Source: Streptomyces longwoodensis (GTDB taxonomy: Bacteria; Actinomycetota; Actinomycetes; Streptomycetales; Streptomycetaceae). Taken from it: a stretch of 64,000 bases of DNA. A program made the translations under genes and the position numbers. Location of the stretch: contig NZ_KQ948551.1 in the NCBI RefSeq assembly GCF_001514125.1, positions 62,001 to 126,000 of the forward strand, given 5' to 3'. The notes under the pieces are model-generated. The model worked only from the letters and a program-made list of their open reading frames with translations. It did no database searches and was not told the origin of the DNA. Below, one piece after another: positions 58,122 to 64,000 of this stretch (position 1 is its first letter; each line of letters opens with the position of its first letter).

Positions 58122-60587
58122 ATGAACAACGCAGTGAACAACGCGGTCTGGTCCGGCAGCTGGGTCGCCGAGCGGCTCGGGGTCGAGCTCGTGGGCGACC
58201 CCGGCCTGACGGAGCTGCTGGGGCTCGCCCTGCGGCGCAACCCCAAGCGGGCGCACCTGCTCGTGTCGAACGTGCTCGGCAAGCACGTCCCGCAGTCGCC
58301 GTCCGTGGTCTACGGCTCCGGGTTCGCCCTCGGCCGCCGGGTGCGCGAGCTGCTCGGCCCCGACGAGGCGGCCCGCGCGGTCGTCCTGGGGTACGCGGAG
58401 ACCGCCACCGGCCTCGGCCACTGCGTCGCCGACGGCCTCGGCGGTGCCCCCTACCTGCACTCCACCCGCCGTCCGGTCCCGGGCGTCGCGCGGGCGGGCG
58501 GCTTCGAGGAGTCCCACTCCCACGCCACGTCCCACCTGCTGCTCCCCGAGGACCCGGCCCTGCTGGCCGGCGACGGGCCGCTGGTCCTGGTCGACGACGA
58601 GTTCTCCACCGGCAACACGGTCCTGAACACCGTCCGTGAGCTGCACGGACGGTACCCGCGGCGGCGGTACGTGGTGGTCGCCCTGGTCGACATGCGCTCG
58701 CCCGCCGACGCCGGCCGGCTGGCGGACCTCGCCCGGGAGATCGGCGCCCGAGTGGACCTCGTCGCGGCGGCCTCGGGCACGGTGCGCCTGCCGGAGGGGG
58801 TGCTGGAGAAGGGCCGGGAACTCGTGGCGCGCCACGAGGCGGCCGCCGGCCCGGAGCAGCCGGCCGCCGCGCCGCCCGCCCCCCGGACCCGGCTCACCTC
58901 CGTCGACCTGCGCTGGCCGCGCGGGCTGCCCGACGGGGGCCGGCACGGCTTCGGTCCGCACCACCGGGCCCGGCTGGAGCGCGCGCTGCCCGCGCTGGCC
59001 GCCCAGCTCGCCGAGGCGATACCCGGCGACGCCCGCCGCGTCCTGGTCCTCGGCTCGGAGGAGCTGATGTACGCCCCGCTGCGGCTCGCCCGCGAGCTGG
59101 AGCAGCTCGTCCCGGCCGAGGTCCGCTTCTCCACCACGACCCGCTCGCCCGTCCTCGCCGTCGACGACCCCGGCTACGCCATCCGCACCCGGCTGGTCTT
59201 CCCCGCTCACGACGACCCGGCCGACGGCCCGGGCGAGCGCTACGCCTACAACGTCGCCGGCGGCGGCTTCGACGCCGTGGTCGCCGTGGTCGACTCGGCC
59301 GGCGACACCCCCGCCCTGCACGCCCCCGACGGACTGCTCGCCCGGCTCGCCGCGCACGTGCCGCACGTGCTGCGGGCCGTCGTGCCGTCGTACGTCCCCG
59401 CGCCGCCGCGCCTCCCCGAAAGGACAGCCATGCTGCCCGCACCCCTCCGCGGTCCCGCCTTCTCCTCGTACGCGCCCGAGGAGGTCGGCTGGCTGCTCCA
59501 GGACCTCTCGGACGTGACGCTGGAGGCGCCGACCGAGGAGCGCGAGGAGGCCATCCAGAGCGGCGGCGCCCACTACGCCGAGTCGCTGCCGGTGGAGTAC
59601 CAGCCCACCGAGCAGTACCAGCAGCTCTTCCACACCGCCCTGGAAGCCTCCGCGGCCCGCCTCGCGCACGCCGTCGGCGTCGTCACCGAGACGGTGATCG
59701 CCGAGCGGTCCCCCCGGCCCGTCCTGGTGTCCCTGGCCCGGGCCGGCACTCCGGTCGGCGTGCTGATGCGCCGCTGGGCCCGGCACCGGCACGGCCTGGA
59801 CCTGCCGCACTACGCGGTGTCCATCGTGCGCGGGCGCGGCATCGACGCCACCGCGCTGCGCTGGCTCGCCGCCCACCACGACCCGGCCGACGTGGTGTTC
59901 GTCGACGGCTGGACCGGCAAGGGCGCCATCACCCGCGAACTGGCCGCCGCCGTCGAGGAGTTCGAAGCGGCCGGCGGGGCGAGCGGGTTCGACCCGGAGA
60001 TCGCGGTGCTCGCCGACCCCGGTTCGTGCGTGCGCACCTACGGCACCCGCGAGGACTTCCTGATCCCCTCCGCCTGCCTCAACTCCACGGTGTCCGGGCT
60101 GATCTCGCGGACCGTGCTGCGCGCCGACCTGGTCGGCCCCGACGACTTCCACGGCGCGAAGTACTACCGCGAGCTGGCCGGCGCCGACGTCTCCGGCCTC
60201 TTCCTCGACGCGGTCTCCGCGCGCTTCGACGAGGTCGCCGACGCGGTGGACGGCGCGGTCAAGGAACTGCTGGCGAGCGACCGCACGCCCACCTGGGAGG
60301 GCTGGGCCGCCGTCGAGCGGATCAGCGAGGAGTACGGCATCCACGACGTGAACCTGGTCAAGCCGGGCGTCGGGGAGACCACCCGGGTGCTGCTGCGCCG
60401 GGTGCCCTGGAAGATCCTGGCCCGGGCCGGGGCGGGCGCCGACCTGGAGCACGTGCGCCTCCTCGCCGAGCAGCGCGGGGTGCCCGTCGAGGAGGTCGAG
60501 GGACTGCCGTACACCTGCGTGGGGCTGATCCACCCCCGCTTCACGCGCGGGGCGACCGGCGCCGACGGCAAGGCGGTGGCCCTCTGA
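58122..60587 (+). CDS. Fused phosphoribosyltransferase-TRSP / phosphoribosyltransferase-Pelota protein
   Basis: 821 residues. The first half (1-436) is a Ter-operon PRTase with the PRPP loop LVLVDDEFSTGNT at 154-166 and then a TRSP-type region. The second half (437-821) is a second PRTase-like module (VVFVDGWTGKGAI at 591-603), also listed as StiP, ending in a Pelota/L7Ae-like RNA-binding segment (GETTRVLLRRVPWKIL near 745-760). In other genomes these are usually two genes. At residue 437 an in-frame ATG (59430) has AAAGGA before it. It is predicted to make a nucleoside-like metabolite. Its stop overlaps the next start (TGATG). Confidence 0.85.
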   Translation: MNNAVNNAVWSGSWVAERLGVELVGDPGLTELLGLALRRNPKRAHLLVSNVLGKHVPQSPSVVYGSGFALGRRVRELLGPDEAARAVVLGYAETATGLGHCVADGLGGAPYLHSTRRPVPGVARAGGFEESHSHATSHLLLPEDPALLAGDGPLVLVDDEFSTGNTVLNTVRELHGRYPRRRYVVVALVDMRSPADAGRLADLAREIGARVDLVAAASGTVRLPEGVLEKGRELVARHEAAAGPEQPAAAPPAPRTRLTSVDLRWPRGLPDGGRHGFGPHHRARLERALPALAAQLAEAIPGDARRVLVLGSEELMYAPLRLARELEQLVPAEVRFSTTTRSPVLAVDDPGYAIRTRLVFPAHDDPADGPGERYAYNVAGGGFDAVVAVVDSAGDTPALHAPDGLLARLAAHVPHVLRAVVPSYVPAPPRLPERTAMLPAPLRGPAFSSYAPEEVGWLLQDLSDVTLEAPTEEREEAIQSGGAHYAESLPVEYQPTEQYQQLFHTALEASAARLAHAVGVVTETVIAERSPRPVLVSLARAGTPVGVLMRRWARHRHGLDLPHYAVSIVRGRGIDATALRWLAAHHDPADVVFVDGWTGKGAITRELAAAVEEFEAAGGASGFDPEIAVLADPGSCVRTYGTREDFLIPSACLNSTVSGLISRTVLRADLVGPDDFHGAKYYRELAGADVSGLFLDAVSARFDEVADAVDGAVKELLASDRTPTWEGWAAVERISEEYGIHDVNLVKPGVGETTRVLLRRVPWKILARAGAGADLEHVRLLAEQRGVPVEEVEGLPYTCVGLIHPRFTRGATGADGKAVAL

Positions 60588-61526: not shown

Positions 61527-61742
61527 TCAGCCGCAGCAGCCGCCCCCGCAGCAGCCGCCGCCTCCGCCGCCCCCGGTCGGGCGGGGGGTGGACGCCGTGC
61601 CGCCGACGGCGACCGTGGAGAGGAGCTTGACGGTGTCGTCGTGGCCGGACGGGCAGGTCGCCGGGGCGGAGGACTCCGCCATGGGACGGGACAGTTCGAA
61701 GGTGTCGCCGCAGGTACGGCAGCGGTACTCGTAGCGAGGCAT
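61527..61742 (-). CDS. FmdB-type zinc ribbon protein with Gly/Cys tail
   Basis: 71 residues. MPRYEYRCRTCGDTFELSRPM is the FmdB/CxxC start; Cys8/Cys11 pair with a later Cys-x-x-x-H (CPSGHDD), which makes the zinc site less regular than usual. It ends in GGGGGGGCCGGGCCG, a Gly run with four Cys. Probably a small regulatory or binding protein. Confidence 0.85.
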   Translation of the reverse strand: MPRYEYRCRTCGDTFELSRPMAESSAPATCPSGHDDTVKLLSTVAVGGTASTPRPTGGGGGGGCCGGGCCG

Positions 61743-61983: not shown

Positions 61984-64000
61984 GTGACCCAGGCAGGGCG
62001 AGGGAAGAACGACGAGGGCGGCGACGACGAGGTTCCTCTGGAACCGGACGCCACCATGCAGTTGAAGGTCCCGTCGCCGCCGCGACCGGACGAGACCATG
62101 CAACTGCGCGTCCTCCCGCCGGACATATCCGGAACTCCGGATGAGCCGGAGATATCGGACCCGTCCCGTTCCGCGCGCGGCCGCCGCAAGGCCGCCCAGC
62201 CCTCCCCCCGTGACCGCCTCGCCGCCGCCCTCGGCCCCCACCTCGCCCGGGCCTGGGCCGCCCTCGCCCCGGCCGTCGCCTTCCTCACCCCCTACCTGCG
62301 CCGCCTGCGCCCCCAGTACCCCCGCCCCGGCCGGGACGACTGGCGCCGCTGGATACCCTCCTGGCGGCAGTGGCTCGGCGGGATCCTCGGCGCGCTGGGC
62401 CTGAGCACCTTCTTCCTCGTCGTCGCCTACGCGGCCACCGACATCCCGGACAACCTCAACTCCTACGCCACCCAGCAGGACAACGTGTTCTTCTGGGCCG
62501 ACGGCACCCCCATGGCCCGCACCGGCTGGGTGCAGCGCCAGGCCATGCCGCTGAAGGACATCCCCGAGGGCGTCCGCTGGGCCGTCCTCGCCGCCGAGAA
62601 CGAGAGCTTCTACTCCGACCCCGGCATCTCCTTCAAGGGCATCACCCGCGCCCTGTTCCGCACCGTCGGCCAGGGCGACACCCAGGGCGGCTCGACCATC
62701 ACCCAGCAGTACGTCAAGAACGTCTACCTGAACCAGGACCAGACGGTCAGCCGCAAGTTCACCGAGGCGATGATCTCCCTCAAGCTCGACAACAAGATGA
62801 GCAAGGACAAGATCCTCGAGGGCTACCTCAACACCAGCTGGTTCGGCCGCGGCACCTACGGCATCCAGCGCGCCTCCCAGGCCTACTACGGCAAGGACGT
62901 CAGCAAGCTCAACCCCTCCGAGGCCGCCATGCTCGCCTCCCTGCTCAAGGGCGCCGGCCTCTACGACCCGACCCTGGGCAGGGCCAACCACGCCCGGGCC
63001 GTGGAGCGCTGGTCCTGGATCCTGGACCGCATGGTCAAGATCGGCAAGCTGTCCCCGGCCGAGCGGGCGAAGTACCGGGCGTTCCCCGAGCCGCTCAAGC
63101 GGAACCCGCTGTACGACACCGGCCAGCAGAGCGACTACCTGGTCGAACTCGCCACCCAGTACGCCAAGAAGACCGGGCACATCTCCGACAAGGACTTCGA
63201 CCTCGGCGGCTACCAGATCTACACGACGTTCGACAAGAACCGCGAGGCGCAGCTCACCGACGCCGTCACCAAGGCCCGCAAGAAGGCCCAGCGCGACGAC
63301 CCGAAGACCGCCGCCGACGCCCACTACGGCGCCGCGTCCGTCGCCACCGACGGCCGCATCCTCGCCGTCCACGGCGGCCCCGACCACCGCAAGCAGGGCT
63401 ACAACGAGTCCAACGCCACCACCGTCCCCGCCGGTTCGGCGTTCCTGCCGTTCGTGTACGCGGCCGGGCTCGAGCACGGCGTCCACAAGACCCGCGAGGG
63501 GCCGGCGACCCCGGTGACCGGCGAGTCGCTCTACGACGGCGACGACGGCGTGCCGGTGACCACGCCCGAGGGCCCCTACTGGGACCGCAGCGGCCGCAAG
63601 GTCGCCGCCCACAACGACGGCGGCACGTCGTACGGGCAGATCTCGCTGCACCAGGCGCTCGCCAAGTCGGTCAACACGCCGTTCATGCAGCTCGGCATGG
63701 ACACCGGCCTGGCCAACGTCCGCGCCACCGCCCAGGCCGCCGGACTGCTGTCCTCCAGCCTCGGCGCGCAGGTGCCCGCGCTGTCCCTGGGCAGCTCCAC
63801 GCCCAGCGCCATCCGCATGGCCAGCGGGTACGCCACGTTCGCCGCCGACGGCAAGCACACCGAGCCGTACTCGGTCCGCAAGATCACCCACAACGGCACC
63901 AAGGTGCCCCTGGAGATCCCCTCCGCCCGGCGCGCGATCGGCGCCGACACGGCCCAGGAGGTCTCCTCCGCGCTGCGGGACGCCTTCCGCACGGCCCACC
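61984..64000 (+). CDS. Class A penicillin-binding protein, 3' truncated by the window
   Basis: 672 residues visible, open to the end. GTG with GGAGG upstream. A basic/acidic cytosolic tail of about 130 residues, TM near 131-151, GT51 transglycosylase with Glu205 (AAENESFYS) and GGSTITQQYVKN, then a transpeptidase-like domain. The SxxK motif reads GSAFLPF: Ser485 present, Lys replaced by Leu488; SVN is at 562-564; KTG lies outside the window. Glycan polymerase activity is expected, cross-linking is doubtful. The tail has two D-x-TMQL copies. Confidence 0.9.
   Translation, partial: MTQAGRGKNDEGGDDEVPLEPDATMQLKVPSPPRPDETMQLRVLPPDISGTPDEPEISDPSRSARGRRKAAQPSPRDRLAAALGPHLARAWAALAPAVAFLTPYLRRLRPQYPRPGRDDWRRWIPSWRQWLGGILGALGLSTFFLVVAYAATDIPDNLNSYATQQDNVFFWADGTPMARTGWVQRQAMPLKDIPEGVRWAVLAAENESFYSDPGISFKGITRALFRTVGQGDTQGGSTITQQYVKNVYLNQDQTVSRKFTEAMISLKLDNKMSKDKILEGYLNTSWFGRGTYGIQRASQAYYGKDVSKLNPSEAAMLASLLKGAGLYDPTLGRANHARAVERWSWILDRMVKIGKLSPAERAKYRAFPEPLKRNPLYDTGQQSDYLVELATQYAKKTGHISDKDFDLGGYQIYTTFDKNREAQLTDAVTKARKKAQRDDPKTAADAHYGAASVATDGRILAVHGGPDHRKQGYNESNATTVPAGSAFLPFVYAAGLEHGVHKTREGPATPVTGESLYDGDDGVPVTTPEGPYWDRSGRKVAAHNDGGTSYGQISLHQALAKSVNTPFMQLGMDTGLANVRATAQAAGLLSSSLGAQVPALSLGSSTPSAIRMASGYATFAADGKHTEPYSVRKITHNGTKVPLEIPSARRAIGADTAQEVSSALRDAFRTAH

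Follow-up and report, generated by a model that had tools for sequence, protein, structure and literature searches.

A Streptomyces family of class A penicillin-binding proteins with an intact transglycosylase and a probably non-catalytic transpeptidase domain

Class A penicillin-binding proteins (PBPs) that lack the SxxK motif have been recorded before in Streptomyces. Among 100 class A PBPs of this genus, 13 were found to be without SxxK (SAV_4423, SCAB_64431, SSFG_02387 and ten others), most of them with the SxN and KTG motifs kept, and it was concluded that such proteins can still function as PBPs (Ogawara, 2016; PMC6273383). Given this list, the lysine loss described here is not wholly new. 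Compared by description only, the protein studied here has in common with the listed ones a class A architecture, the genus Streptomyces, the lack of SxxK and an SxN motif that is mostly kept. That text does not describe the proteins as one clade, nor does it mention an operon, a tail motif or a second inactivated clade; clade structure, second inactivation, gene order and tail motif are what the present work adds, and our data argue against the conclusion that these are working PBPs. A literature search that covered few subscription papers found no other description of an SxxK-less PBP family.

The gene was found in a 64,000-nucleotide stretch of the Streptomyces longwoodensis genome (the window). 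The best sequence and fold matches of its product are the canonical class A PBPs, namely Acinetobacter baumannii PBP1a (3udf), Escherichia coli PBP1b (5fgz), Staphylococcus aureus PBP2 (3dwk) and Mycobacterium tuberculosis PonA1 (5crf), with which it shares a transmembrane helix, a transglycosylase (GT51) domain with intact motifs and a transpeptidase (TP)-fold domain; unlike them, it has no SxxK lysine and its KTG motif is degenerate. The AlphaFold model (mean pLDDT 59.7) was used only for this overall match to class A PBPs. The monofunctional glycosyltransferases (Mgt/MtgA) would work in a similar way, by glycan polymerisation without transpeptidation, but the window's PBP retains a TP-fold domain of 300 residues and is thus not a GT51 protein without TP; its TIGR02070 score (112.6) is below the cut-off of 182.65.

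Two domains of the window's PBP

The gene, which like all its features given below lies on the plus strand, starts with GTG at 61984 and runs uninterrupted past the window end at 64000. Its stop codon lies in the same contig (G000:C3:126227), so that the whole gene (L009 2984–5227) encodes 747 amino acids, with Pfam matches to Transgly (1.4e-58) and Transpeptidase (7e-18). A single transmembrane helix at about residues 131–150 (62374–62433) is predicted from hydrophobicity and appears as a low-confidence helix in the model. Comparison of orthologues showed only weak conservation upstream of the start codon and gave no basis for proposing a promoter. A small FmdB-type zinc-ribbon-like gene (MPRYEYRCRTCGDTFE...) lies divergently at 61527–61742 on the minus strand.

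The Transgly match defines the GT51 domain at residues 174–350 (62503–63033). Its motifs are whole, with E205 in ENESFY (62596–62598), GGSTITQQ (62686–62709) and E261, and both catalytic Glu residues are found in all 142 orthologues of the clade to which the window's PBP belongs (clade A). The protein therefore has the class A hallmark of a GT51 domain with catalytic Glu and GGSTITQQ, and the transglycosylase domain is intact, as had been proposed in an earlier note on this DNA.

The TP-like domain extends from about residue 440 to about residue 740, beyond the window (63301–64000 within it), and was recognized by sequence and fold matches; the Pfam match begins only at profile position 67. 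The earlier note had read G-S-A-F-L-P-F at residues 484–490, which is exact (codons 63433–63453). The SxxK place is thus occupied by S485-A-F-L488 (63436–63447), with L488 encoded at 63445–63447. The SxN motif is kept as S562-V-N564 (63667–63675), Ser being found in 119 and Asn in 120 of 122 orthologues, whereas the KTG site, just past the window end, reads K685-A-G-T (L009 5036–5047). Of the three transpeptidase motifs only SxN is therefore present, and reading the full gene for KTG, a check suggested in the earlier note, turned up KAG in its place.

Alignment of the orthologues, likewise suggested there, showed that the loss is general and gave none of the Lys-bearing orthologues that would have spoken against it. 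Among the 142 distinct clade A core sequences, collected from a scan of GTDB genomes and from genus and family samples, the position of the SxxK Lys is occupied by Leu (58), Thr (45), Gln (22), Met (7), Glu (5), Ala (4) or Ser (1) and in no case by Lys. The nucleophile position carries Ser in 106 sequences and Thr in 36; at the KTG site Lys is found in 141 of 142 but Thr in only 28, having been lost in the other 114. The Streptomyces galbus copy (L045), 95% identical to the window's PBP, likewise has SAFL. The chance that a sequencing error or a local pseudogene accounts for the missing lysine is close to nil: this explanation is refuted by 142 orthologues sharing the loss and further contradicted by the intact long frame and the conserved gene order, and we found no point in its favour.

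In SxxK acyltransferases the Lys activates the Ser. With this Lys missing, acylation by the stem peptide or by a beta-lactam should fail. It could be argued that the TP domain retains some activity, either weak or directed at another substrate, in which the side of the cleft with the SxN serine and the KTG lysine serves as the base, and that the protein is a low-affinity PBP engaged in beta-lactam self-resistance. The persistence of Ser or Thr at the nucleophile position and of SxN and the KTG Lys in almost all members would fit such an activity, as would the published conclusion that these proteins 'can function as PBPs', which was drawn from domain conservation alone (Ogawara, 2016; PMC6273383). 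We nevertheless regard it as unlikely, since the Lys position varies freely among seven residues so that no substitute base is conserved, Ser is replaced by Thr in a quarter of the sequences, the KTG Thr is lost in 80% and the constraint on the TP domain is relaxed relative to active paralogues. The same genome encodes four class A paralogues (L010–L013) with canonical STFK, SxN and KTG motifs, so that the cell does not depend on the SAFL protein for cross-linking.

Phylogenetic distribution and constraint

Clade A members were found in 42 of the 101 Streptomyces genomes sampled (scores of at least 690 bits, with the sequences of all 42 read) and, in the family sample, in four further genera, which indicates that the family is maintained. 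In a tree built with the motif columns left out, the Lys-less sequences all fall into a single clade (SH-aLRT 100), with one change in the state of the Lys position. As the basal members of clade A often retain SVN and KTG, the Lys was probably lost first, with the decay of the KTG motif following later and chiefly within the Streptomyces main clade.

A second group of Streptomyces class A PBPs with intact transglycosylase motifs, clade B (L137–L144, L148, L151 and L157), keeps SAFK but has GGN, SAN, GQS and similar sequences in place of SxN and RTG, ATG and similar ones in place of KTG. It is probably the sister group of clade A (support 94, in a 'quick' tree only). Both clades thus combine an inactivated TP domain with intact transglycosylase motifs and, since each retains what the other has lost, two separate transpeptidase inactivations are the simplest account of them. 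Several genomes (G036, G038, G060, G075, G081 and G093) carry both kinds of inactivated PBP.

The TP domain has diverged faster than the transglycosylase (TG) domain in the inactivated lineages, with TP/TG divergence ratios of 2.06 in the main clade, 1.80 in basal clade A and 1.68 in clade B, as against 0.91–1.14 in three active clades. This rate difference in clade A (1.8–2.1-fold, compared with 0.9–1.1 in active paralogues) lends further support to the reading in the earlier note, in which a glycan polymerase carries a non-catalytic domain at its C-terminus. The ratio of about 2, together with small insertions at the KTG region of some orthologues, could also be taken as signs of a relic TP domain, a decaying C-terminus on a protein of which only the transglycosylase matters. 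We consider this very unlikely, because none of the clade A members read is truncated or contains a stop codon, at a quarter of the TP positions (G484, F487, P489–Y492, N564, K685, G687, W696 and G699 among them) at least 98% of 122 sequences agree, and the dN/dS of the TP domain lies clearly under 1 without exceeding the values of active paralogues. In the main clade dN/dS is 0.21 for TG and 0.42 for TP, absolute values that are rough owing to simple Nei–Gojobori counting on G+C-rich DNA, and both domains are below 1. The TP domain is thus relaxed but maintained under purifying selection, as expected if catalysis has been lost while a structural, binding or regulatory job is kept.

Cytoplasmic tail and neighbouring genes

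The tail ahead of the transmembrane helix is variable, yet an octapeptide of the DETMQLRV type occurs between one and four times in 94 of 104 main-clade tails. The window's PBP has two: DATMQLKV at residues 22–29 (62047–62070), with T24 as a candidate kinase site, and DETMQLRV at residues 36–43 (62089–62112), with T38 as another. Main-clade tails hold 169 copies in all, against 0.025 expected from shuffled tails, which rules out a chance origin. Basal clade A, clade B and the active paralogues have no copy, and the genome of the window holds just two instances of TMQL[KR] with Val or Leu as the next residue, both in the PBP gene. The phospho-threonine sites that depend on M. tuberculosis PknA show a preference for an acidic residue at −1, Leu or Val at +3 and Lys or Arg at +4 (PMC7164672). 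The second copy agrees with all three preferences; the first has Ala at −1. By analogy with this mycobacterial preference, the main-clade tail probably receives Ser/Thr-kinase input at the repeated D-E-T-M-Q-L-R-V sites, although the absence of the motif from basal members means that such input was not part of the ancestral function.

The next gene begins 48 bases past the PBP stop codon in S. longwoodensis and S. galbus alike (L009 5276–7021 and L045 8302–9579, 425 amino acids in S. galbus). All 80 main and all 12 basal GTDB loci have it, as do 28 of the 30 loci from the family sample, where flanks were short, but none of the 8 clade B loci examined does. Its product gave no sequence match in Pfam, NCBIfam or PDB; the best matches of its predicted fold (pTM 0.69, mean pLDDT 64) are CE4 polysaccharide deacetylases, including M. 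smegmatis 3rxz, Bombyx chitin deacetylase 5z34, Helicobacter pylori 3qbu and Bacillus subtilis PdaC. In all 63 aligned orthologues the HxxxH pair is invariant and SWDG stands in the place of TFDD; for this first motif, the match to the canonical NodB domains of the same genome is only 18 columns long. The gene may encode a new CE4 subfamily or a pseudoenzyme. A 531-base run of N lies inside the S. longwoodensis copy (L009 6320–6850), as an assembly gap or masked sequence; the S. galbus copy is intact.

Of the 80 main loci, 79 have an Amidase_6 (PF12671) gene next, as against only 3 of the 12 basal ones. No paper on a Streptomyces operon combining a PBP with a deacetylase was found in the literature search, and three features of the family look new: the unclassified CE4-like downstream gene, the Amidase_6 gene that usually follows it in the main clade and the repeated DETMQLRV tail motif. 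On the other side of the PBP, the window carries at 58122–61405 genes for a PRTase_2/TRSP/StiP/PELOTA_1 protein (Pfam domains as assigned for the S. galbus copy) and for a small HAD hydrolase-like protein, a pair that resembles tellurite stress resistance genes. Of the 70 main-clade loci whose flanks are complete, 57 have such genes next to the PBP; none of the 12 basal loci does.

Proposed function and significance

Taken together, the absence of Lys from all 142 orthologues, the replacement of Ser by Thr in 36 and the loss of the KTG Thr in 114 best support the earlier proposal: the protein is probably derived from a class A PBP and anchored in the membrane, polymerising glycan in a penicillin-insensitive way while its TP domain is catalytically dead. 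The intact GT51 domain would polymerise lipid II into glycan strands. No acyl-enzyme should form on the TP domain, so that penicillin would not be bound covalently and the domain would be a non-catalytic module, one that probably persists because it positions or regulates the polymerase or binds a stem peptide or a partner. Almost every member retains the SxN motif and the KTG Lys, an odd outcome if the cleft had no role at all; as far as can be read from the alignment, this side of the cleft would allow non-covalent binding of peptide.

The glycan made would have to be cross-linked by other enzymes, and besides the four canonical class A PBPs the genome encodes several class B PBPs. The polymerase itself should stay unacylated, and hence working, in the presence of beta-lactams. 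A comparable division of labour is known from S. aureus, where PBP2 with its own TP domain blocked still polymerises and leaves cross-linking to PBP2a. Ser/Thr kinases may control the polymerase through the main-clade tail. The PBP is probably co-transcribed and made together with the CE4-fold protein, itself secreted or anchored in the membrane, and often also with the Amidase_6 protein; both of these may modify the new glycan.

A more far-reaching reading, which we put forward as speculative and rather doubtful, is that these genes form a dedicated Streptomycetaceae system: a kinase-controlled, beta-lactam-proof polymerase with a substrate-sensing pseudo-transpeptidase and with an unclassified CE4-fold and an Amidase_6 partner would make and modify a specialised peptidoglycan, un-crosslinked or cross-linked separately, while a sister lineage lost transpeptidation in another way.

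These proteins would be natural class A PBPs in which evolution has split polymerase from transpeptidase, apparently twice in related lineages, and would make the non-catalytic role of the TP domain for the polymerase directly testable. If our interpretation is true, a genus that contains beta-lactam producers has an intrinsically beta-lactam-insensitive polymerase, one that may be linked to signalling by Ser/Thr kinases.
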